Origin: Afipia sp. OHSU_II-C1
GTDB lineage: Bacteria; Pseudomonadota; Alphaproteobacteria; Rhizobiales; Xanthobacteraceae
Length of the DNA stretch: 64,000 nt
Reading direction: 5' to 3'
NCBI RefSeq assembly: GCF_000497575.1
Contig: NZ_APJI01000010.1
Span: 1-64,000 of the forward strand
Shown here: piece by piece, positions 8,952 through 61,241 of the stretch
How positions within the stretch are numbered: position 1 is the first letter of the stretch
Layout: each line of letters begins with the position of its first letter
Position numbers and translations under genes: made by a program
The notes under the pieces: generated by a model
What the model saw: only the letters and a program-made list of their open reading frames with translations
Database searches by the model: none
Told to the model about the DNA's origin: nothing

Positions 8952-9107
8952 TTATCCAAGCACCCCGGCGAAGTGAAGCGCAACGCCTGCCGCCGCGCAG
9001 GCGGCAAGGGTCTGCAACAGACCGGCATTGAAGCGGAATATCGCAACCGCCGCGGCGACGGAAAGTGCAAGCGCCCATGGGTCGACGCTGGTGAGCGGCA
9101 ATCTGTG
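8952..9107 (-). pseudogene. C-terminal remnant of a ChrA-like chromate transporter
   Basis: About 50 codons (PLTSVDPWALALSVAAAVAIFR...LQTLAACAAAGVALHFAGVLG, then stop) resemble the last membrane segments of CHR-family chromate transporters, where ALALSVAAAVA(I/M)xRFxxGxLxxLAACA is characteristic. Upstream the frame dissolves into unrelated sequence and runs into the CRP-like box and leader of the next gene, so no intact gene exists. It is most likely a relic left when the neighbouring block was inserted. Identification is from memory of the family. Confidence 0.42.
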
Positions 9108-9119
9108 ACTTGGTTCACA
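9104..9119 (+). promoter_or_regulatory. CRP-like binding site 1
   Basis: TGTGACTTGGTTCACA is an exact match to the TGTGA-N6-TCACA CRP consensus. Its last base is 54 nt before the ATG of the small membrane-protein gene at 9173. A Crp-type regulator gene with a conserved R-E recognition helix lies 370 bp downstream. Confidence 0.7.
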
Positions 9120-9146
9120 TACCGCCACAGGGATTGGGGTTACTGA

Positions 9147-9171
9147 GTTGCCTTTCGTTAAAGGAGGCAAC
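9147..9171 (+). promoter_or_regulatory. Inverted repeat enclosing the ribosome-binding site
   Basis: Two alternative stems share the Shine-Dalgarno AGGAGG (9162-9167). One is GTTGCCT/AGGCAAC (9147-9153/9165-9171); the other is CCTTT/AAAGG (9151-9155/9160-9164) with a CGTT loop. Either would occlude the ribosome-binding site of the gene at 9173. If a CRP class II start site is used (about 9153), part of the 5' arm would not be transcribed. Confidence 0.45.
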
Positions 9172-9172
9172 C

Positions 9173-9427
9173 ATGCACACCCCGACAGGAGAACTGACCC
9201 ATTCCGGGTTGGGCAGTCGACGGAACTGGACGGCATGCTGGAGATGGTCTGTTTCAGTCCTGGCCCTCGAATTCGCCTTGGTCATGGCCCTGATCGGATT
9301 CGCGGTAAGCTCGCGCTCAACCTCGCCTGTAAAGGCATCCTCGCAAGTCGAACAGGCGCAACAGACCCCGGCTGCTGCCCGCAAGGCATGCCCACTGGGT
9401 CACGCCCAGAAAACACGAAGTCTATGA
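9173..9427 (+). CDS. Small single-pass membrane protein (CRP-box gene 1)
   Basis: 84 aa, not recognised. A polar N-terminus (about 24 residues, including RRNWTACWRW) is followed by one membrane helix (about residues 26-46, VSVLALEFALVMALIGFAV) and a polar tail rich in Ser, Gln and Ala (SSRSTSPVKASSQVEQAQQTPAA). The start is set by AGGAGG with a 5-nt spacer. It has an exact CRP-like box upstream and lies next to the convergent crp-like gene. It shares size, topology and leader layout with the gene at 19116, but I see no clear sequence identity. Confidence 0.6.
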   Translation: MHTPTGELTHSGLGSRRNWTACWRWSVSVLALEFALVMALIGFAVSSRSTSPVKASSQVEQAQQTPAAARKACPLGHAQKTRSL

Positions 9428-9487
9428 TGGCCGATCGCTGACCGATCCAGCCTCTTCTCGTTGACGCCTGTCCTAAGCTCCAGCGCG

Positions 9488-10210
9488 TCAATCCTGCGAC
9501 CGTTCCGCCATACCCTTCAACGAATCGACGTCGATAACGGTGATCGATCCCCGCTGAAGGCGGACCAGCTTCCGGTCAGCCCATTCGTGCAGTTGCTTGT
9601 TGACGCTTTCTCTCGACATACCGAGCATCTCGCCAATTTCTTGCTGCGTGATGGTGATTTTTCTGTCCAGCGCAGCGCCCGGCCTGTCGATCAGCCGGAT
9701 GAGCGCCTTGGCGAGCCTGCCTGACAGGTCGGGAAATATGACTTGCTCCACATGCTCGCTGATCCAGCGCAAGCGGACACAGAGCAGTTCTATCACCTTT
9801 GTTGCCAGCACCGGCTGGCTGGCCAGCAAGGCCAGAAAGTCCCTCCGATCAATGACAAACAACTCGCAGTCCGCGTTCGCAATCGCATCGGCGGTCCTGG
9901 CAAGACCATCGAGAACCGCGATCTCCCCAAACATCTCCCCTGCATCAACCATATTGAAAATGGCGCCGCGGCCGTCGGCGGACGAGACGCCGATTTTCAC
10001 CGTGCCGCTGATAATGAAAAAGAGACTTTGGCCACGATCCCCTTTTGCAAAAATTGTCGCGCCACGTTTGAACGTTCTCTTTTTGGCATAGTGGCACAGT
10101 TGATCCAGCGCCTCAGTGCCGAGGTCGCGAAACAGCGGATGGTTGCGCAGGACCCTCGTCTTGTCGGCGGCGGATCGGGCTGTTGCTGGCGTGTCGTCGT
10201 CCTGAAGCAT
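9488..10210 (-). CDS. Crp/Fnr family transcriptional regulator, probably cAMP-responsive
   Basis: 240 aa. The N-terminal cyclic-nucleotide-binding beta-barrel contains GEMFGEIAVLDGLARTADA, with the Glu and the Arg-Thr pair expected at the phosphate cassette (Arg-Ser in E. coli CRP). The C-terminal winged helix reads ITQQEIGEMLGMSRESVNKQL; the recognition helix keeps the Arg-Glu that CRP uses to read TGTGA. There is no cysteine set for an FNR-type Fe-S cluster. It is divergent from a nucleotidyl cyclase gene. Three CRP-like boxes nearby (9104, 18985, 19048) are its probable targets. Crp-type is my best call. Confidence 0.88.
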   Translation of the reverse strand: MLQDDDTPATARSAADKTRVLRNHPLFRDLGTEALDQLCHYAKKRTFKRGATIFAKGDRGQSLFFIISGTVKIGVSSADGRGAIFNMVDAGEMFGEIAVLDGLARTADAIANADCELFVIDRRDFLALLASQPVLATKVIELLCVRLRWISEHVEQVIFPDLSGRLAKALIRLIDRPGAALDRKITITQQEIGEMLGMSRESVNKQLHEWADRKLVRLQRGSITVIDVDSLKGMAERSQD

Positions 10211-10294
10211 CGGCGTATGGCCTGGTTACAAAATGAATAAATTTCTTCCGTTCGGCGAACCTCGCGGTCGCCGAAATGGAGCAATGCAAGCTTC

Positions 10295-10308
10295 GTTGAA
10301 ATTTCAAC
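10295..10308. promoter_or_regulatory. Palindrome between crp-like and cyclase genes
   Basis: GTTGAAATTTCAAC is a perfect 14-bp palindrome in the 261-bp gap between the two divergent genes. It is not a TGTGA-type site and has the wrong spacing for an FNR box (TTGA-N4-TCAA rather than N6). It may be an operator for a different regulator. No other feature is evident in the gap. Confidence 0.4.
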
Positions 10309-10471
10309 CAAATGCAGCTTCGAAGCTACGCCCTCTATACCACAATCGCGGTATCCCCTTGGCCTCCGGCCCATTTTTTGGGCGTCCGAAACCAGCCAAG
10401 GGGCGGGTTCATCTTGCTATTGCCGAAGGAACCCTTAAACCTAGCGTGGGCTCAAAAACTGCGGGGCTGCC

Positions 10472-13400
10472 ATGATTACAGGGCAGCGTGGCTTGATCGG
10501 CGGCACGGATCATCGCTGTAGCTACTGCGGTTTCGTTATGGAACCGACAGCCCGGTTTTGCGGCGGCTGTGGACGCCCAAAAGCCCGCTCCAGCGACACG
10601 GCGTCGCACGCGCTTTCCTTCCTGCAATCGAACATACCCACAGACCTTGCCGATCGCATCCTGCGCTCGGGCGGAGCGATGCTCGGTGAGCGCAAGCACG
10701 TCACGGTCGTTTTTGCAGATGTCCGCGATTCAACGGCCCTGATCGATCATCTCGATCCCGAGGAGGCGCTACAGGTTCTCGGCCCCGTCCTTAAAACCTT
10801 GATGGATGCAGTCCACCATCACGATGGCTTCGTGAACCAGACACTCGGCGACGGGATCATGGCGCTGTTCGGCGCTCCAATCGCGCGGGAAGACCACGCC
10901 GTGCAGGCGTGCAGCGCGGCGCTCGCGATGCGGACCGCCGTCGGCGAACTCAATCAAAGGACCGGACGGGATATCGCCATCCGTATCGGCATGAATTCCG
11001 GTGAAGTCGTCATCCATTCGATCGGCAACAACCTGGCGATGAACTATGACGCAGTCGGAAAGAGCGTCCATCTGGCTGCACGAATGGAAGAGCTTGCTGC
11101 ACCAGGCAAGATTCTGCTGACCGCGGCGACCCATGACCTTGCGAAGGGCTTTGTAACGGTTCAGCCGCAGGGATTTGTGGATGTAAAAGGCGTCTCCGAA
11201 GCGGTTGAAGTTTTCGAACTCACGGCCATACGGATCAGAACACGATGGCAGGTCCGGTCTGCACGCGGTCTCAGCGTTCTCGTGGGCCGCCAGAACGAGC
11301 TGCGCAGCCTGAGAGGCGCGCTTGAGAGTGCCGCAGCCGGAAATGGACAGTCGGTGAGCATTGTTGGCGCAGCCGGACTGGGAAAGTCCCGTCTGATACA
11401 CGATTTTATCCGGAATGTTTCCGACGAATGGACCGTTCTTGAGACCGCCTGCCCCTCGCAGCGAACGAGTTCAAGCTATTACCCCATCGGCCTGTTGATC
11501 AGAGCGATGTTCGGGGTTGGCATCGATGACAGTCCCGAGACCGTCATTGGCCGCGTCAGGGAAGGCATTGGACGGCTGGGCAACAATCTGTCGGGTTTTC
11601 TCCCTCCTATTCTCTCGTTGCTGGATCTCAACGCAGACGATGAAGAGTGGAAGAAACTGGAGCCGTCCGAGCGGCGGCTCAAGACCATGGAAGCCGTCAG
11701 ATCGCTGGTTATTCACTACACGCGGTCGAATCCCTCTGTCATTCTGGTCGAAGATCTTCACTGGGCCGACGCCGAGACGAAGCTCATCCTGCAAAATCTG
11801 GCCGGGGCGCTGGACGGGACACGGGCCCTCCTTATCGGAACGCAGCGTCCCGAGGGCGGATCGCTGGATCGCGGCACGACCTGCCTCGACCTGTCACCGC
11901 TTGACGACGAAACTTCTCACCAGCTGATGGACTGGCTGATGGGAGACGACAGCAGCCTCAGCCCGTTAAAGCGGAGAATACTGGCGCAGTCCCAGGGTAA
12001 CCCGCTGTTCATGGAAGAACTGGTCCAGACGCTCAAGGAAACGGGATTTCTTCGGGGTCAGCCGGGCAACTATCAGGCCGTCAAACGGAGCGGCCGCGCG
12101 GAAATTCCACAAACCATTCATTCGGTGCTCGCGGCCCGCATTGACCTTCTGGACGGATTTCCAAAGTCGCTGCTCCAGACGTCAGCCGTCATCGGCATGG
12201 AGATTTCCGTCGCCCTGCTCTCGGAAATGCTGGACGTCACCCCTGCAGAAATTTCCGGCGAACTTCGAACGCTGGAGGCTGCCGATTTTCTCCGGAAGAT
12301 CAGAAGCACCACGTCGGCCGATTATTCATTCAAACACGAACTCACACGTGAAGTTGTATATGGCACGATGCTGCTGGGCCTTCGACGCTCGCTTCACGCC
12401 AAAGCCATCGACATCATTGAAACGCGATTTCCCGATCGCCTTGACGAGTACATCGATCGGCTTGCCGACCATGCGTTCAAAGCCGAGCTTTGGGAAAAGG
12501 CCGTCCCTTATCAGCTGCGCAGTTGCCGGCGCGCCGTCAAACGCGGTGCCAATCAGGACGCTATCAGCATCTACGAGCGCGGCCTGGAAACCCTGTCACA
12601 TCTGGCGGACTCTTCCGCCAAGATCAAAGCCGAAATCGATTTCCGCCTGACGCTGGTGATTGCGCTCGAACCGCTCGGCAAGCATCGCCAGATCGCAGAC
12701 GTCTTGCGCGAGGCGAGCCGTCTGGCCGACGCTTCGGGAGACCCCCTGCGCACAACCGCGGTCAACTGTCAGCTTGCCGTAGCGTTGTGGCGACTCGGAG
12801 AGCACGCGCCCGCGATGGCGGCCGCCGAAATGGCAAGCCGCATCGCGGACAAGATCGGCGATCCATCGCTCCAGTTTGCTTCACTTCTCATTGTCGGCAT
12901 TGTTCATCACGAACTCGGCAATTTCGCCACATCAATCGAGATGCACGAGAAATGCATTGCGATCGAAACCCCCGAGCTTGACCAGAAGCGCGCCGGCTGG
13001 GCTGCCTATCCCAGTGTCCTTCTGCGAACCTTCATGGCGGATTCCCTGATTGAACTTGGCGACCTTCCCCGCGCGGAAAGTGTGGCGGAGGACGCCAGCA
13101 GGCGCGCCGAAATCCTGGATCACGCCTATTCTCGTGCCAACATTAATCATGTGCTCGGCCGGTTGCGAACATCTCAGGGACGGCATGCCGAGGCGCTCCC
13201 CCTATTGCGCGAAAGCTGGCAGACCTGTCTCGATCTCGAAATGGTCCAGATGTATCCGGTGTTCGCAGCCCGCATGGGTGAGGCTCATCTTGCAACGGGC
13301 GACATCGAGACCGCCCTCAATATCCTGTCGATCCCTGAACGGCTCGACGTGCCGCTGGCGGAGCATTCGTTCGGCTGGCGCTATCTTTTCATCGCACAAG

Positions 13401-13693
13401 GCCGGGCCCTGCTCGCTGCGGGCCGTCTTGCGGAGGCGCAGGCTGCAGCCGAGCGCGCCCTGGCGCTTGCAGAACAGCGCGGAGAACCGCCGCAGCAGGC
13501 CTATGCGACACATCTGCTCGGTGAAATCGCGCGCGCCGGCAATCCGCAGAATCGCACCTTGGCAAACACCTACTTCAAGCGTGCGCTCATGTTCGCAGAA
13601 AAATGCGGCATGAAAGCCATGATGGCTGCCTGTCGCCATGCGATGGAGAACACAGCCGATCGAAACAAAGAGCCCAGCATCGCGGACAGATAG
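10472..13693 (+). CDS. Class III adenylate/guanylate cyclase fused to AAA ATPase and TPR repeats
   Basis: 1073 aa. Order: zinc ribbon (about residues 15-35, CSYCG...FCGGCG); cyclase domain (about 70-255) with metal aspartates in VVFADVRDST and LGDGIMALFG and the YDAVGKSVHLAARMEELA block; an AAA/NACHT-like ATPase (Walker A GAAGLGKSR, Walker B VILVEDLHWAD); and a long TPR-like C-terminus (about 650-1050). The HLAAR form in place of NxAAR is common in this ATPase-fused subfamily, so activity is plausible. It should make cAMP in the cytoplasm in response to an unknown partner. Divergent from the crp-like gene, so the second messenger and its receptor are probably paired here. Confidence 0.9.
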   Translation: MITGQRGLIGGTDHRCSYCGFVMEPTARFCGGCGRPKARSSDTASHALSFLQSNIPTDLADRILRSGGAMLGERKHVTVVFADVRDSTALIDHLDPEEALQVLGPVLKTLMDAVHHHDGFVNQTLGDGIMALFGAPIAREDHAVQACSAALAMRTAVGELNQRTGRDIAIRIGMNSGEVVIHSIGNNLAMNYDAVGKSVHLAARMEELAAPGKILLTAATHDLAKGFVTVQPQGFVDVKGVSEAVEVFELTAIRIRTRWQVRSARGLSVLVGRQNELRSLRGALESAAAGNGQSVSIVGAAGLGKSRLIHDFIRNVSDEWTVLETACPSQRTSSSYYPIGLLIRAMFGVGIDDSPETVIGRVREGIGRLGNNLSGFLPPILSLLDLNADDEEWKKLEPSERRLKTMEAVRSLVIHYTRSNPSVILVEDLHWADAETKLILQNLAGALDGTRALLIGTQRPEGGSLDRGTTCLDLSPLDDETSHQLMDWLMGDDSSLSPLKRRILAQSQGNPLFMEELVQTLKETGFLRGQPGNYQAVKRSGRAEIPQTIHSVLAARIDLLDGFPKSLLQTSAVIGMEISVALLSEMLDVTPAEISGELRTLEAADFLRKIRSTTSADYSFKHELTREVVYGTMLLGLRRSLHAKAIDIIETRFPDRLDEYIDRLADHAFKAELWEKAVPYQLRSCRRAVKRGANQDAISIYERGLETLSHLADSSAKIKAEIDFRLTLVIALEPLGKHRQIADVLREASRLADASGDPLRTTAVNCQLAVALWRLGEHAPAMAAAEMASRIADKIGDPSLQFASLLIVGIVHHELGNFATSIEMHEKCIAIETPELDQKRAGWAAYPSVLLRTFMADSLIELGDLPRAESVAEDASRRAEILDHAYSRANINHVLGRLRTSQGRHAEALPLLRESWQTCLDLEMVQMYPVFAARMGEAHLATGDIETALNILSIPERLDVPLAEHSFGWRYLFIAQGRALLAAGRLAEAQAAAERALALAEQRGEPPQQAYATHLLGEIARAGNPQNRTLANTYFKRALMFAEKCGMKAMMAACRHAMENTADRNKEPSIADR

Positions 13694-13728
13694 AACGCTT
13701 CGCACTCTCCGGCCTGCTTCGGCTGAAT

Positions 13729-15177
13729 CTACCTTGCCAGCGCGCGAACGGCTTCAATCCCCGGCAGGAAAAAGTAGGCGCCACCGCGGACCCGGACGAA
13801 CGGGCGCGAACGATCGATATGGTGGTTGTTCGGCCGATCCTGAATGCTGGCTACGTCCCCGGGGCAACTGAAATGTCCAAGCGGATCTGTACCGGCGTAA
13901 AGACCACCGAAGTGCGTGTTGTTAAGCCATGAATGCTGGATCATCTCGAATTGCCCGGCAATATCCGCGTTGAGGGCGATGAATGACATTCCACGCGCCG
14001 CCTCCCCGTTTGCACCGTCTTCGGAAAGTCTTTCTCCATAGGGCCTGCCGCGCCTGATGATACGATGCATCTTTGAAAGTCGCAGGGCTGTATCTGCATC
14101 CGGACCGATCGTGTCTCGCGGATTCGCGCGGCGGATGTGAGCGCCGATCGGGCATGCCATCCCGAAGCGATCTTCGAAGTGGTAGAGAAAATCATTGCGC
14201 GGCGACGCACCCGCCCGCCGCTCGATCGGAACCAAGGGATGGCCCTGGCGCGTTCGCCCGACAAGCTGCGAGGCAATCATTTCCTGCGCCGGCTCATCGG
14301 TTCGCCCATAAACGCGCTCAGCCGTCTTCGCGACGAACTCATTGAAAGCCGGCACGTCCTGCTCCAGCTGCCGGAACACGAGGTATGTTCCGTTATGCCG
14401 AATGTCTACGCTCCCTTCAGCCTTCACACCGGAAACGTCGAAGATGCTGGAGCGGCGCTCGTTCTTGTAACCAAGGACGAATTCACCGGGCTTGACGAGA
14501 AGAATCCGCCTCTCCTCCGGAGTCAGCCTTTTGTTGTGGTCGTTATCGCTGGTTCGCTTCCTTCCGTTTCTTGTCGTCCTCGGAGAGCCCTCAATCAGCG
14601 GCTGTGAAATGCCGTCTGTAAATCCAAAGTGCTCCTTGCGATCGTCGTAGATCCGGCCGCCGATGATCAGCGGCTTGCCATTCCGCCGCACTGCCGGCGC
14701 AGCAACGTCCCCCATGGCCTCGATCTCGGCATCGACGAACGATCGCAGCTTCGTTTCGTCGGCCGCGTAGAGCAACAGCATTCCGTCGATGCTCTGACTC
14801 TCTTTCCAGCCGCCCCATTCCCAAAATTCAGGCGAACTGTCGCCTGTATCTCCGAGAACATTCGACCGGCGTGGAAACTTCGTTTCCGCAGTCGGCTTCG
14901 GGGCCATCCCTTCGAGAAACTCGAGAGAGAAGTCATTCAGCACCTTCTCACTGACGCGAAGATGCTCCAGGCCATGCGCCGTCAGCGCAAGGTTGATCGC
15001 CTGTTGACCTCCGCTCGCCGTCGCGCGCGTGAGCCGATCTGACAGCCGCCGGAGCCATTTCTTCGCGACTCCAATCTCGCCCGGCACGAAGTGCCAGAAG
15101 ACGTAAGCGGAAAACGGCAGTTTCGGATAACCGCTCAGCACCAGCCTCTGAACGTCATCCCATTCAACCTTCTCCAT
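13729..15177 (-). CDS. DyP-type haem peroxidase
   Basis: 482 aa, with no obvious signal or Tat peptide. The DyP GxxDG motif is present as GFTDGISQP (residues 185-193, catalytic Asp 188). The haem-side blocks PIGAHIRRANPRD (about 343-355) and MHRIIRRGRPYG (about 370-381) are intact. It oxidises bulky substrates with H2O2, probably in the cytoplasm. It is the last gene of a three-gene operon with a P450 and a membrane protein, starting 14 nt after the latter. The DyP call is firm; the substrate is unknown. Confidence 0.9.
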   Translation of the reverse strand: MEKVEWDDVQRLVLSGYPKLPFSAYVFWHFVPGEIGVAKKWLRRLSDRLTRATASGGQQAINLALTAHGLEHLRVSEKVLNDFSLEFLEGMAPKPTAETKFPRRSNVLGDTGDSSPEFWEWGGWKESQSIDGMLLLYAADETKLRSFVDAEIEAMGDVAAPAVRRNGKPLIIGGRIYDDRKEHFGFTDGISQPLIEGSPRTTRNGRKRTSDNDHNKRLTPEERRILLVKPGEFVLGYKNERRSSIFDVSGVKAEGSVDIRHNGTYLVFRQLEQDVPAFNEFVAKTAERVYGRTDEPAQEMIASQLVGRTRQGHPLVPIERRAGASPRNDFLYHFEDRFGMACPIGAHIRRANPRDTIGPDADTALRLSKMHRIIRRGRPYGERLSEDGANGEAARGMSFIALNADIAGQFEMIQHSWLNNTHFGGLYAGTDPLGHFSCPGDVASIQDRPNNHHIDRSRPFVRVRGGAYFFLPGIEAVRALAR

Positions 15178-15191
15178 GGCAGCGACCCATA

Positions 15192-17219
15192 TCAGAGGCT
15201 CCGGAATATCGTGTCGGTCTCGCTGTAGTTCAGCGGCTTGAACAGCGATTGTCTCAGCTCGGTGTTGGCATTGACATTGATGACACTGAGCGTGGGATAC
15301 GCGCTGTACCAGGCAATCGTCTCAACCTGGCTTTGACGGACATAGGCCTTGAAAGGCTGCTCGGCTTGCGCGCCTCTCCAGAAGAGAAATTTCGACGCGG
15401 GGAACCCGTAGGATTTTCCGTCCGCTGTGACAAACGTGTTCGACCAGATGGCATTGAGGCCCTTGACCGCCGCCAGATCGATGAACTCGTTGAGATAGCT
15501 TTCCCACGCTCCGCCATAATTATCGAGAAACAGGAGCCGCTTGCCGCCGTCAATCATCACCCACCGTGCCGACAGGATCGTCGGTATGCCGCCGAGCTCG
15601 CCGCGATTGAACCAGAAACGCGACAGCAGATTGATGGCAAACAGCGCGAGGCGCAGCAGCCAGCATCGAATGAAGCCCGGCTTCACAGACGTGATGCTGG
15701 CCAGATGATTCTGATACCGGTTGATACCACCTTCCTCGCGGACATACTTCCGGGCGTTCTCCCGGGCACGCGCGATGAGTCCGGCCGGCTCGGAAAAATT
15801 GCGCCTATCCCTGATCTCAAGCGTTCGTATGAGCCCGAAGATAAAAAGCCCAATGACATAATAGGCCAGGATGCCGATGAGGCCGTAAGCCACGGTGACA
15901 AGCACGGCAAAAACGATCGACCGCGCGATTGTCGCGATCTGCTCGCTGACGGCAAACGGCAGGTGACGCGCGATGAGCAGAACGCCAACCGCGATCACGA
16001 TAACCATCGCGAATCTGTCCAGATCAAGCAGCAGCCGCCGGACATTCTCACGAACGGCATCATATGGCCGAAGCTGAACGGCAAGCTTCAGGGATGTTGC
16101 CCAGTAGTTCAGAACCGCCAGGAGCAACACGACAATGACGAGACGGCCAATCGCCGCCCAGAGACCGGGCTGCACTGCGCCGCCAGATCGAACCGCGGTC
16201 ATTCCCGAAATGACGGCCAGCACAACAGAGCCAGCAAGAAAGACGATCAGCGCGTATCTGACGATCACCGCGATCTGCAACGGAAAGCGGTTGATAAAGA
16301 GCTGATCGTGAGGATTCCTGGTCCAACTGGTCAGGAAGAGCTCAAAGATGCGGACGATCAGCCACACGCCAGTCAACGCAATCAGGGTATGAAGGATCGC
16401 GGGCTCGATCGTGATGTGGCTGGCAATCCACGGGAACCACGACACCATAAAGTTGCCGATGCTTGCCCCGATGCGGCTCACATGCTCGAACGCCCGAACG
16501 ATATGGCCGTGCAGCACAAACGGCCCCCAGGAGAACAGCGCACCTACAGCGATGCCGGTCGCGCAGACCACAACCAATGCCGCAATGACGGCGGCAGCAA
16601 CGATCAGCGGACGCTGCCGTATCTCCCAAGGCGTCGGCGCAATTTGTTCGGCCCAGCGATTGTCGTCCTGCCCGCGAATGACATGGCGTCGCACCTCGTC
16701 GAGAAGTCCCACCGAGCGCGCGGGGATGGCATCACCCGGCCGGCATCGTTTTGAAAGGAACGTGACAATATCGCGACGGAGAAGACTCTCGCCCTGAATT
16801 TGCGCCACCGTGCGACCCGGACTGCCGCTAAAGAAAGTGTTCGCGCCGACATCATGGTTCACAAGATATTCTGCAATCAGGAGAGGCGCGGCGAGCCCGG
16901 AAACCGGATAGTCCGAACAATGCCGATAGGTCTCATGCATGCCTTGCGGCGCGATCTTCAGCAACTCATTCAGAAAGTCCTCTCTGGACCCGTCGAAGGT
17001 CGCCTCGAATACGAGGCTGGGAGCGAATTCGCCGTCGGCATCGAGGATGACAAAACTGCAGAAGTGCAGGCTTGCGATCTTGTCGAACCGGAACAACGGT
17101 CTGCACTCCATCAGGTCGCCGGAAAGGCGCGGCTCGGCGTTGTCGCGCAGATGCTGACGGCACGCGTCCACGCGGCCGGGGTCGAGCGGCGTGATGATCG
17201 TTGTGTAGTTCGGGCTCAC
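15192..17219 (-). CDS. Membrane protein with two DyP-like ferredoxin-fold segments flanking a multi-helix core
   Basis: 675 aa, GTG start overlapping the P450 stop (GTGA), so probably translationally coupled. The N-terminal soluble part (about 1-200) contains LHFCSFVILD...SLVFEATFDGSREDFLNELL. A hydrophobic core (about 220-480) has roughly six to seven membrane helices. The C-terminal part (about 540-675) contains LSARWVMID...LLFLDNYGGAWESYLNEFI. The two soluble parts look like copies of one segment that resembles the N-terminal ferredoxin-like half of DyP-related proteins. No haem-ligand motif is seen. The function is unknown; it may anchor or feed the haem enzymes. The longer frame upstream of 17219 is only P450 overlap. 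Confidence 0.75.
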   Translation of the reverse strand: MSPNYTTIITPLDPGRVDACRQHLRDNAEPRLSGDLMECRPLFRFDKIASLHFCSFVILDADGEFAPSLVFEATFDGSREDFLNELLKIAPQGMHETYRHCSDYPVSGLAAPLLIAEYLVNHDVGANTFFSGSPGRTVAQIQGESLLRRDIVTFLSKRCRPGDAIPARSVGLLDEVRRHVIRGQDDNRWAEQIAPTPWEIRQRPLIVAAAVIAALVVVCATGIAVGALFSWGPFVLHGHIVRAFEHVSRIGASIGNFMVSWFPWIASHITIEPAILHTLIALTGVWLIVRIFELFLTSWTRNPHDQLFINRFPLQIAVIVRYALIVFLAGSVVLAVISGMTAVRSGGAVQPGLWAAIGRLVIVVLLLAVLNYWATSLKLAVQLRPYDAVRENVRRLLLDLDRFAMVIVIAVGVLLIARHLPFAVSEQIATIARSIVFAVLVTVAYGLIGILAYYVIGLFIFGLIRTLEIRDRRNFSEPAGLIARARENARKYVREEGGINRYQNHLASITSVKPGFIRCWLLRLALFAINLLSRFWFNRGELGGIPTILSARWVMIDGGKRLLFLDNYGGAWESYLNEFIDLAAVKGLNAIWSNTFVTADGKSYGFPASKFLFWRGAQAEQPFKAYVRQSQVETIAWYSAYPTLSVINVNANTELRQSLFKPLNYSETDTIFRSL

Positions 17220-18694
17220 CGTTTCTGCGCCCCGGTGGTTTGCGTGTTGAATGTGAGGACGAATGAGTATGGCGCCGGCCCTTCGTAGCGGATCTGGCCA
17301 TCGGAACCGGGCGCGCGCGCGAGGCCGGGCAGACGGAGCAATGCCCGCGCCATCTCCATGAGAGCGCTCTCGGCAACGTATCTGCCGAAGCAGCGGCGCT
17401 CGCCGTCGCCAAAATGAATGTAATTCTTCAGCGGCCGCTGCGGATCGAACCGCGACGGGTCTGAAAATGCATCGGGATCGAACATGGCGGCCAGTGGCGC
17501 CGCCAGAACGCGTGCGCCCGCCGGCACGATGCGCACGCGCCTGGTTCCGTTTGCGACGATTGTTTCGCGTGGACAATCGCGCACGAGCAGGGGCAGCATC
17601 GGCCGGAACCGGAGCGCCTCATAAATGTAGTGTGTCAGCGCCTCGCGGGACTTCGCCACACGCTCCGCCGCGAAACGCCGATCACTGTCCGATGCTCCGC
17701 TCGCGAGGCGCTGTTCTTCCGCTTCCGCATGATCGAGCGCGATGGCCAGCTTCTGCGCTTGCCGCAAGGCATCGGGCCGGGCCACGAGCTGATCGACCAT
17801 CTGCGAGGTCCCGCGAACCACCGTTGCAAGACCGGTCGCAACCAGACCGGTCAGGTATCGCCGTATCCAGTCTTCATCGAACCACTTTGGCGTGCCGCCG
17901 GCATGCAGCAGCGCCGTCAGGCGCGTCAGCAGATTGTCGGGAAGTTCGCCTTGGCGTGACGCGCTGATTGCCGACCTGACAACCGCAATCTGCTCCAGCA
18001 GCTGCTGCGTCAGGGCAGCCATATCGTCGCGCGATTCGATCCACGGATTTGAACCGACCGGAGGATTGACCATGATAATCCCGGCCAGGTTACGCGTGGC
18101 GCGCGCCATGCGGCGCTTGTCGTTTTTCAGCGGAGCAACGCCGAAATAGTCGGCGGCAATGCGAATGACCGCGGGCTCCGCAAGCTCGGCGACCATGTCG
18201 ATCCGGCCGTTATTGGCAGCGGTTATCCGCTCGCGGCATTCTTCAGCGACCACTTTCCTGATTGTCTGCGGATCGATCTCCCGCCTGACCACACTCTGAA
18301 GCAACCCCCGCTCGCGCGCGTGTTGCTCGCGCCAGTCAACCGTCATCAGAAACGGACCCCACGGCATCCCCGGATCGATCACCTCGCCCAGTGTGAAGTC
18401 ATCGAAGCGCCCGAGAACCTCTCGAACATCGCTCATCTTGGTGAGAACGACGAGCTTGCCGAAGATCGAAATCGGACGCACACGGCGCAGCAGCGTGAAG
18501 ACAAGCTTGAGAAGCCAGAGATGGCAAAAGATGTAGGAGCTGAACCGGTAGCTCGCCCTTTGCCGGGCAAGCGAGATTCTTTGCAACAATCGGGTCAGTA
18601 CGCCGCCATCGGTCGCCCGCCTTTCGCGGCGAGGAGCCGCAGAGGAATGGCGATGTGGACCTTCGATCATTGAATCAGGAACGTGCGTGCTCAT
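17216..18694 (-). CDS. Cytochrome P450 with non-canonical helix I
   Basis: 492 aa from ATG 18694 (a TTG at 18709 is also possible). The haem-thiolate loop is canonical: FGDGERRCFG, with Cys about residue 435. The K-helix ExxR is present (EALRFRP). The helix I region reads VATGLATVVRGT where (A/G)Gx(D/E)T is expected, so the acid-alcohol pair used for O2 activation is missing. P450s lacking it, such as peroxygenases and hydroperoxide-rearranging types, use peroxides instead, and the operon encodes a DyP peroxidase. A hydrophobic stretch near residue 55 (IFCHLWLLKLVFTLL) may be a membrane contact. The first gene of the operon, with a CRP-like box about 290 bp upstream. Confidence 0.88.
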   Translation of the reverse strand: MSTHVPDSMIEGPHRHSSAAPRRERRATDGGVLTRLLQRISLARQRASYRFSSYIFCHLWLLKLVFTLLRRVRPISIFGKLVVLTKMSDVREVLGRFDDFTLGEVIDPGMPWGPFLMTVDWREQHARERGLLQSVVRREIDPQTIRKVVAEECRERITAANNGRIDMVAELAEPAVIRIAADYFGVAPLKNDKRRMARATRNLAGIIMVNPPVGSNPWIESRDDMAALTQQLLEQIAVVRSAISASRQGELPDNLLTRLTALLHAGGTPKWFDEDWIRRYLTGLVATGLATVVRGTSQMVDQLVARPDALRQAQKLAIALDHAEAEEQRLASGASDSDRRFAAERVAKSREALTHYIYEALRFRPMLPLLVRDCPRETIVANGTRRVRIVPAGARVLAAPLAAMFDPDAFSDPSRFDPQRPLKNYIHFGDGERRCFGRYVAESALMEMARALLRLPGLARAPGSDGQIRYEGPAPYSFVLTFNTQTTGAQKR

Positions 18695-18709
18695 GACGAC
18701 ATCCCGCAA

Positions 18710-18980
18710 TTATCGCTGGCAATGAACGCGCTAAAAATCTGGATCGGCAATCGATTGGTCTGCGCAGTCGACAGCAAGATATCATCTCCACCAGAGGACG
18801 ACCAACACTTAGAGATTGATCCGTGAGAAGCAGATGGCACGGTTTCCGGAGGGCAAAAACATCGGCGTACACTCTGCAAATCTTCAATGACGCCAACACC
18901 TTGGGGGATATCGGCGCGCGGCGCTCCGATAGAGCTCGATTGCCTCTCGCTCTTGAAAAATAGCCGCTCGGGGTGGCTGT
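18710..18980. other. Gene-free upstream region of the P450 operon
   Basis: This DNA separates the divergent P450 operon and the second small gene. I see no convincing gene. A minus-strand frame (18691-18999) ends in an ATGA overlap with the P450 start, but it begins at a GTG inside the CRP-like palindrome, so it is not annotated. It presumably holds the P450 promoter. Confidence 0.4.
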
Positions 18981-19004
18981 CGAATGTGAGCTCGCTCACA
19001 TTCG
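18981..19004. promoter_or_regulatory. CRP-like binding site 2 (24-bp palindrome)
   Basis: A perfect inverted repeat with 11-bp arms (CGAATGTGAGC / GCTCACATTCG) and a 2-bp centre. Inside it is TGTGA (18985-18989)-N6-TCACA (18996-19000), flanked by AA/TT as in the best E. coli CRP sites. Its centre is 63 bp from the centre of site 3, about six helical turns, so tandem Crp dimers would face the same side. It also lies upstream of the divergent P450 operon. Confidence 0.75.
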
Positions 19005-19047
19005 CCGCGCAGTTTCTGCCGCGGCGAGATGATGGAATTTTGCGATC

Positions 19048-19063
19048 TGTGGGTCAGGTCACA
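19048..19063 (+). promoter_or_regulatory. CRP-like binding site 3
   Basis: TGTGGGTCAGGTCACA matches TGTGA-N6-TCACA with one mismatch. Its last base is 53 nt before the ATG at 19116, against 54 nt for site 1 and the gene at 9173. Both boxes are preceded by ATC. Confidence 0.62.
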
Positions 19064-19074
19064 GACAGATTCGC

Positions 19075-19117
19075 ACCCTTGTTGAAGGGTTCATGGCAGC
19101 CAATAGGAGGCTGCCAT
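19075..19117 (+). promoter_or_regulatory. Two hairpins in the leader, the second hiding ribosome-binding site and start codon
   Basis: The first hairpin is ACCCTT/AAGGGT (19075-19080/19085-19090, loop GTTG). The second is a perfect 9-bp repeat, ATGGCAGCC/GGCTGCCAT (19093-19101/19109-19117), with a 7-nt loop. It contains AGGAGG (19105-19110) and the AT of the start codon at 19116. It would block translation when folded. Whether both arms are transcribed depends on the unmapped start site. Confidence 0.5.
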
Positions 19118-19385
19118 GAAAAACAGGCTCAGCTACAGCACCCGCCGCTTCGTCTTCATCGTTGGCGCATTTTGCGCTTATGGATTACTGGCCGGCGGCC
19201 TGATCATTCTCAACGCGAACAACCCGCACGCCAAAGGCGAAGCCACTTTCGATACCGCGACCATGGATTTTCCGTCATCGAACGCGGCGCCGGCTGCAAG
19301 GGCGGCGATAGCCGCGCTTCCCATTCAGGAGCTTCACCGCAAGACGACAAACCTTCCCGTTGAAGTTTTTGCCGATCCGAACTGA
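19116..19385 (+). CDS. Small single-pass membrane protein (CRP-box gene 2)
   Basis: 89 aa, not recognised. A short basic N-terminus (MKNRLSYSTRR) is followed by one membrane helix (about residues 12-33, FVFIVGAFCAYGLLAGGLIIL) and a periplasm-facing-type polar tail rich in Ala, Asn and Thr. The basic-in rule puts the tail outside. AGGAGG with a 5-nt spacer sets the start. The leader layout copies that of the gene at 9173. It is divergent from the P450 operon and shares a CRP-like control region with it. Confidence 0.62.
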   Translation: MKNRLSYSTRRFVFIVGAFCAYGLLAGGLIILNANNPHAKGEATFDTATMDFPSSNAAPAARAAIAALPIQELHRKTTNLPVEVFADPN

Positions 19386-19490: not shown

Positions 19491-19580
19491 TGGCGGAGAG
19501 GGAGGGATTCGAACCCCCGATAGGCTTGCACCTATGCCGCATTTCGAGTGCGGTGCATTCGACCACTCTGCCACCTCTCC
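19491..19580 (-). tRNA. tRNA-Ser (anticodon CGA)
   Basis: On the minus strand, GGAGAGG (5' acceptor arm, from 19580) pairs with CCTCTCC ending at 19495, followed by discriminator G and an encoded CCA (19491-19493). The anticodon loop is CTCGAAA, giving CGA for UCG codons. The long variable arm (CATAGGTGCAAGCCTATC) is the class II feature of tRNA-Ser, and GGTTCGAATCC is the T-loop. All arms are intact. Confidence 0.96.
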
Positions 19581-60509: not shown

Positions 60510-61241
60510 TTACGGCTTGCCCAGTTGCGATGCACGGTCGCGCAGAAACGCCTCGACCGTCGGCAGAATCCGCTCAACCACAACATCGACGCCGGCCGCC
60601 GTCGGGTGCAGCCCATCGGGCTGGGTCAGCTTTGCCTCTGTGGCCACGCCATCGAGAAAGAATGGATAGAGCGGGACTTTGTGGCTCCTGGCGAGTTCGG
60701 GATAGATGCTGTTGAACTGCGCCGTGTACTCCGCGCCGTAGTTCGGCGGCGCGTACATGCCGCACAACAGGACCGCAATGTTGCGCGCCTTGAGTTTAGT
60801 CAGGATGTCGTCGAGCGCGCCGCGCGCCACTTTCGGATCGACGCCGCGCAGCGCGTCGTTGGCGCCGAGTTCGACGATCACCGCTTCCGTGCCGGGCGGG
60901 ATCGACCAGTCGAGCCGGGCAAGCCCGCCCGTCGTGGTGTCGCCGGACACGCCCGCATTGTGAATGTCGGTGGCAATGCCCTTCTCGCCCAGGGCTTTCT
61001 GCAACCGCACCGGAAACGCCGCCGAGGCCGGAAGGCCGTAGCCTGCGGTCAGGGAATCGCCCAGCACGGCGAGTTTGATCGGCTTCACATCTTTGACATC
61101 TGACTGGACAGAAGCCGTTTGAGCCGAGGCCGGCCCCGACATCGCCATCATTGCCCCCGCTGCTGCGACGATGAATGCCCTCAAGAGCCCCTCGACCGCG
61201 CGGCCGGAACCCCCATATGAAAGATCCATGGACAGTCTCAT
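60510..61241 (-). CDS. TesA-like SGNH/GDSL esterase (arylesterase)
   Basis: 243 aa from ATG 61241, preceded by GAGGG. A long signal-type N-terminus (about 16-42, LLRAFIVAAAGAMMAMSGPASAQT) sends it to the periplasm. Blocks: GDSLTAGYGLPAS (Ser), GVSGDTTTGGL, GANDALRG and DGLHP (Asp-His). Acts as esterase/lysophospholipase/thioesterase I. Divergent from the ybbA-like gene; the two start regions overlap by 14 bp. Confidence 0.92.
   Translation of the reverse strand: MRLSMDLSYGGSGRAVEGLLRAFIVAAAGAMMAMSGPASAQTASVQSDVKDVKPIKLAVLGDSLTAGYGLPASAAFPVRLQKALGEKGIATDIHNAGVSGDTTTGGLARLDWSIPPGTEAVIVELGANDALRGVDPKVARGALDDILTKLKARNIAVLLCGMYAPPNYGAEYTAQFNSIYPELARSHKVPLYPFFLDGVATEAKLTQPDGLHPTAAGVDVVVERILPTVEAFLRDRASQLGKP

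Follow-up and report, generated by a model that had tools for sequence, protein, structure and literature searches.

A Crp-type regulator and a class III cyclase, probably forming one circuit, are inherited with a P450-membrane protein-DyP operon in Afipia

In a 64-kb window of the 5.08-Mb genome of Afipia sp. OHSU_II-C1 (the whole stretch of DNA that was analysed, 64,000 nucleotides), a Crp-type regulator and a class III nucleotide cyclase probably form a linked circuit that acts through the site TGTGA-N6-TCACA and is inherited together with an operon for a cytochrome P450, a membrane protein and a DyP-type peroxidase. The ligand, activation by the regulator, the neighbouring cyclase as the source of the signal and the P450-DyP product are parts of this reading that we infer. 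The genes smA (from 9173) and smB (to 19385) bound the block, whose outer edge lies beside a tRNA-Ser gene. The features are:

9104 to 9119, no strand: exact TGTGA-N6-TCACA box upstream of smA
9141 to 9146, plus strand: -10-like hexamer TACTGA, 22-27 bp past the end of the smA box
9173 to 9427, plus strand: smA, 84 amino acids, one hydrophobic stretch, GGAGG ahead of the ATG; putative direct Crp target
9488 to 10210, minus strand: Crp-type regulator, 240 amino acids (cNMP_binding 1.2e-24, HTH_Crp_2 3.6e-16)
10472 to 13693, plus strand: class III nucleotide cyclase with AAA ATPase and TPR parts (Guanylate_cyc 1e-28, AAA_16, TPR)
13729 to 15177, minus strand: DyP-type peroxidase, 482 amino acids, GxxDG and proximal His motif kept
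15192 to 17219, minus strand: membrane protein with no family assigned, probable start GTG at 17219, 675 amino acids
17216 to 18709, minus strand: cytochrome P450, longest frame from TTG at 18709, likely start ATG at 18694
18985 to 19000, no strand: exact TGTGA-N6-TCACA box inside the 24-bp element 18981 to 19004
19048 to 19063, no strand: one-mismatch box, 52 bp ahead of smB
19116 to 19385, plus strand: smB, 89 amino acids, one hydrophobic stretch
19491 to 19580, minus strand: tRNA-Ser (cga), block edge and possible insertion site

The block and its CRP-type boxes

The motif scan of the window confirmed the two exact boxes and the one-mismatch box reported by an earlier sequence-only reading, and open reading frames with domain matches likewise confirmed the Crp protein, the operon and the class III cyclase with its AAA and TPR parts. 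The P450, membrane-protein and DyP genes make up one minus-strand operon, in which the membrane-protein start overlaps the P450 stop by 4 nt (the same overlap is found in locus L110), and the cyclase gene is divergent to crp. The single hydrophobic stretch of smA and smB was judged by reading the sequence. The element at 18981 to 19004, described earlier as a 24-bp palindrome, is a near-perfect one: its 11-bp arms are perfect, and the 2 bp at the centre fail to pair. The 19048 box begins 63 bp (six helical turns) past the start of the exact 18985 box. No box with at most one mismatch was found in the crp-cyclase intergenic region of the window; L110 has one-mismatch sites upstream of both crp and the cyclase gene.

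A fourth match, with one mismatch, lies at 61074. The four matches in the window at up to one mismatch compare with 1.07 expected, and four were reached in 6 of 100 shuffles; taken by itself, the window is therefore no more than suggestive. Sites were also scored genome-wide, the check proposed with the sequence-only reading: the 5.08-Mb genome has four exact sites, two of them in the block, set against two for a reversed control, and at up to one mismatch there are 48 sites versus 23 for the control. The other two exact sites (L001 and L004, position 1501) lie about 100 bp or less upstream of a gene for an NnrU/ICMT-like membrane protein and of a small 56-residue ORF.

Comparison within the genus was more telling. 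An orthologue of the block's Crp (87-100% identity) is present in 7 of 29 genomes, and the block membrane-protein gene occurs in exactly these seven carriers. They hold four (G000, the window's own genome, and G013), five (G002 and G026) or six (G017, G019 and G025) exact boxes each, and the 22 non-carriers hold 0-3. Exact-box density is 1.06 per Mb in carriers versus 0.27 in non-carriers (0.12 versus 0.08 for the reversed control), a difference with p 1.3e-6 in a rank test without correction for kinship. We also collected 24 block loci, chosen by hand through likeness to the Crp or the membrane protein and not through the box, with same-contig copies removed and with cut contigs and an Actinoplanes locus included. 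TGTGA-N6-TCACA occurs 20 times in this set, spread over 17 loci, while each of 29 permuted half-sites occurs 0-2 times; half-sites at spacers of 2-5 and 7-12 were never found there. Comparison supports three points: the box goes with the block's Crp, the box-to-gene geometry is shared, and the parts are co-inherited. Since the parts stay together with matching boxes in Afipia and several relatives (the block recurs, with boxes, in Tardiphaga and Bradyrhizobium), the linkage of signal maker, receptor and targets put forward in the sequence-only reading looks real.

Small-gene promoters and the P450 operon

The box ahead of smA is exact in all six same-genus loci with the Crp orthologue, where it forms a conserved island in the alignment, and its spacer letters have changed in several relatives. 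Homologues of smA that are 54-77% identical stand behind the same box in six relatives. If the TA of the hexamer opens a -10 element, the centre of the box would lie near -41.5 from the start so placed. This is the class II position, a geometry that the smA promoter would share with E. coli CRP; with the box there, Crp should activate as at such a promoter. Among 21 small-gene promoters picked by hand, seven of them of smA orthologues, 14 have TA 22 bp past the box (offset 22), where the background rate is 0.02 (p about 2e-19; the offset was noticed first and then tested). In a reduced set 8 of 14 have it (p 8e-11). TA at exactly this offset is absent from smB, a 45-residue gene and most of the 90-residue genes.

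Similar arrangements with unlike proteins were found elsewhere. In Tardiphaga, Bradyrhizobium and others, a different small protein, again with a single hydrophobic stretch, is encoded near crp and starts 52-59 bp past a box (78 bp in L112); a box also stands 43-48 bp ahead of a 90-residue protein divergent to the P450. The first of the small-gene boxes in L125 has one mismatch. Homologues of smB were found only in G000 and G019 among 61 genomes. Both small membrane-protein genes had been proposed as targets and both do follow boxes; smA appears the stronger case, and smB, without the TA, the weaker of the two. The two boxes at smB, spaced by six turns, could work jointly.

The block extends to other genera. 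In 19 loci selected by the membrane protein, which is therefore present in all by construction, DyP was found in 19, the P450 in 18 (L132 is cut by a contig end), the cyclase in 17 and the Crp (51-92% identity) in 9. Twelve of these loci have an exact box and one has one-mismatch boxes alone. No box was found in the other six: the contigs of L117, L124 and L132 are short, and L130, L133 and L134 have the enzymes without the box. The genomes of ten loci were searched for Crp (L123 was left out, and G195 appears to be G025, with the match at the same place): seven have an orthologue at 58-88% identity, and in those of L130, L133 and L134 the best match is about 31-35%. A Crp-family gene of 29-34% identity lies beside the P450 in L130 and L133, which makes a diverged receptor with another box possible. 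In two more genomes (L043 and L044) a Crp of 48-50% identity has an exact box nearby and the enzymes are absent.

Control of the P450 operon by Crp, raised as a possibility in the sequence-only reading, is plausible in Bradyrhizobium and unproven in the window. It is close to an even question whether, in Afipia, the operon is no Crp target at all and the regulator would serve the small genes and distant promoters only. In the window the exact 18985 box lies about 300 bp upstream of the likely P450 start. This exact box is also present in G002 and G019. It is missing from three of the five relatives examined (G026, G013 and G017), although in these three the P450 operon and a conserved stretch of about 150 bp immediately before it persist. 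The 19048 box is kept in G002 with one mismatch, and one-mismatch sites are common genome-wide. Conservation of the sites in relatives keeping the locus, on which the sequence-only reading depended, held for the smA box; the second pair is lost in G026, G013 and G017. Against this alternative, two Bradyrhizobium loci have exact boxes 87-96 bp ahead of the P450 start, and 10 of the 19 loci (L116, L120-L122, L125-L129 and L131) have a box with at most one mismatch no more than about 430 bp upstream of where the P450 alignment begins, although in several of these it may serve the divergent 90-residue gene instead.

Regulator, cyclase and heme enzymes

The regulator is a Crp-Fnr family member, with PF00027 and PF13545 both above cut-off; it scores 106.2 bits against the CRP equivalog NF008732 (NCBIfam), whose curated cut-off is 266. 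Alignment bore out both the Arg-Glu recognition helix and the nucleotide-binding cassette noted earlier. In the helix (SRESVNKQL) R and E are kept and the third contact is K or R. In the phosphate-binding cassette (G-E...R-T), Gly95, Glu96 and Arg105 are invariant in 15 sequences including E. coli CRP. The window Crp has Thr at Ser83 and Ile at Thr127 of the E. coli protein; among the 15 sequences, position 127 is Ile, Thr or Val in relatives, and Ser128 is kept in all except L044. Binding of TGTGA-N6-TCACA with cAMP is predicted for this Crp from the co-occurrence of site and regulator.

In the cyclase (PF00211 above cut-off), Asp83 and Asp127, which we take to bind metal, and Arg204, presumably the transition-state Arg, are invariant in 10 sequences. 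A zinc ribbon match at the N-terminus falls below the Pfam cut-off. The protein departs from the canonical adenylate type in having Gln123 with Asp193, and His200 where Asn is usual; the residues expected there are presumably the Lys of the Lys-Asp purine pair and the transition-state Asn. With Gln and His in place of Lys and Asn, its substrate and activity are uncertain.

The cyclase is also not the only candidate near a box. An exact box stands ahead of FecR and CHASE2-cyclase genes in five of the seven carriers (G017, G026, G013, G019 and G025). In G017 Pfam recognises the cyclase domain; in G013, G019 and G025 the sequence read ends inside the gene, and loci L191 and L192 were read by tblastn alone. 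In L190 (2054-4639) the FecR and CHASE2-cyclase genes behind the exact box are divergent to a GGDEF gene. The GGDEF locus was considered as a test of site loss and dropped, because G000, G001, G014 and G027 have neither the FecR-CHASE2 genes nor the box at this locus; the promoter itself is missing, and what is seen is co-occurrence and not loss of a site. With G000 among these genomes, the evidence for this target comes from carriers other than the window's own genome. In L045 and L046, other Crp-family genes (39%) have a protein matching the cyclase domain no more than a few kb away.

An appreciable, if less probable, alternative is accordingly that Crp binds the boxes and takes its signal from a source other than its neighbour, either cAMP from other cyclases or cGMP, with the linkage reflecting shared inheritance of the block. 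The second membrane cyclase behind a box in five carriers, the active-site substitutions, the Thr in the Crp cassette, and L123, which has Crp and box with no cyclase in the stretch read, all speak for it. The presence of the cyclase in 17 of the 19 block loci, its divergent position to crp in the window, and the invariant metal Asp and Arg residues of the ten cyclases speak for the neighbour. In the linked circuit that we prefer, some cue would switch on the cyclase through its AAA-TPR part, and a cyclic nucleotide, probably cAMP, would load the Crp dimer, which would then bind TGTGA-N6-TCACA. The same Crp would act on distant promoters, including those of a MAPEG gene and of the FecR-CHASE2-cyclase operon in five carriers, and the latter could feed back on the signal.

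The heme enzymes keep their principal motifs. Gly185, Asp188, Gly189 and His347 of DyP are invariant in 12 sequences; the Pfam C-terminal domain is above cut-off, and the NCBIfam match is just below its own. In the P450, Cys440 (the heme ligand) and Glu364 and Arg367 (ExxR) are invariant in 13 sequences. In the I-helix motif (A/G)Gx(D/E)T, 12 of the 13 have Ala where the acid should be (TGGAT, TGLAT or TGAAT), so that these lack the acid-alcohol pair of monooxygenases; L134 of Actinoplanes is the exception. The missing acid would fit peroxide chemistry. The membrane protein matched neither a Pfam nor an NCBIfam family (E up to 0.01) and nothing among solved structures (E up to 1), and its two structure models (mean pLDDT 60.3 and 52.7) were too weak for a fold search. 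In L038 (9634-11635) the membrane-protein gene of G019 is in two frames, with the switch near residue 425.

In five further genomes of the family (L193-L197) a single ORF, 1482-1692 residues long, joins all three parts, P450, membrane protein and DyP, which argues that the three proteins work together. No Crp match, and no box at up to one mismatch, was found in the 11-14 kb read there. A bolder reading that we think unlikely is a portable oxidative-signalling island, in which the AAA-TPR cyclase, inside the cell, would sense a cue and use its own Crp to turn on two kinds of target: one-helix membrane proteins that evolve fast, and a complex of P450, membrane protein and DyP acting on a peroxide or hydroperoxide. 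The second, CRP-driven cyclase would serve as feedback.

Distant promoters and related systems

The MAPEG promoter has a box in all six carriers with a match to the gene, exact in five and with one mismatch in G000. In the seven non-carriers scanned (of 19 with a match) the site has three or more mismatches; for G023, whose contig is short, the downstream scan fell in the wrong place. In the non-carriers G027, G014 and G001 the flanking bases persist, as do the MAPEG neighbours (an RsmB-like protein at 91% and a membrane protein at 70-78%); of the site itself they have the right half, GGTTCAC, and no longer the left. G000 and G002 have a differing MAPEG gene, with just 37-40% identity to the copy in the other genomes. 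In a tree of one protein from 24 of the 29 genomes (G011, G023, G024, G025 and G028 were omitted for stops, fragments or a weak hit), G027, G014 and G001 nest with carrier G000 (support 96/85). The carriers do not form a single clade, and at least two changes are required. Joint loss of the regulator and the MAPEG site fits this pattern, and separate gains of the two may be an alternative. A caspase-domain gene stands behind an exact box in G017 (L102, 2104-2829).

The description of the circuit as self-contained is not supported, given the boxes before the MAPEG gene and, in five of seven carriers, the FecR-CHASE2-cyclase genes, and the 11 Crp-family matches in the G000 genome. Those matches, the shuffles that reached four window sites and the four exact genome-wide sites against two for the reversed control are what favours boxes arising by chance or bound by another Crp-family protein, with coincidental linkage, a reading that we reject as highly improbable on the carrier and non-carrier counts, the permuted motifs, the shared spacing and the MAPEG promoter comparison.

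A linked cyclase and Crp is an arrangement already known. The cyaD1-clr-smc02178 locus of S. meliloti also joins a Crp-type receptor, a class III cyclase and a direct target, as described in the available text of PMC4222275. Its Clr box is TGTT-N8-AACA, in contrast to TGTGA-N6-TCACA in the Afipia block; the text available names spdA as a neighbour and no P450-DyP operon, and the Afipia cyclase is of the AAA-TPR type. Clr promoters have box-to-start distances mostly of -42 to -76, according to PMC10127613. The best sequence matches of the Afipia Crp among solved structures include 3mzh (E 1.9e-33), the Mycobacterium tuberculosis Crp, and 7pza (E 3.1e-33), the S. meliloti Clr, as identified in PMC10127613. 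E. coli CRP shares with the Afipia protein the box consensus (also in the available text of PMC4222275) and the R-E recognition residues; the two are 27% identical, and Afipia has Lys for Arg185 and Thr for Ser83. Set against the E. coli CRP-cAMP system, the carrier genomes of the genus have 4-6 exact boxes each. The XC_0250-XC_0249 pair of Xanthomonas campestris likewise links a class III cyclase with TPR to a cyclic-nucleotide receptor, which in the available text of PMC3770947 is a cNMP-GGDEF protein using cGMP, unlike the DNA-binding Crp type of the block. The literature searched gave no account of the block, or of its P450-membrane protein-DyP heme-enzyme module with a linked cyclase and Crp.

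For many alphaproteobacterial cyclases and Crp proteins we know of no partner. Here sequence points at once to one regulator, its box, its likely targets and a candidate cyclase, and because they are naturally present in some genomes of one genus and absent from others, each link can readily be tested. The trio of P450, membrane protein and DyP, found also fused in a single chain, is a heme-enzyme system with no known function that now has a predicted switch.
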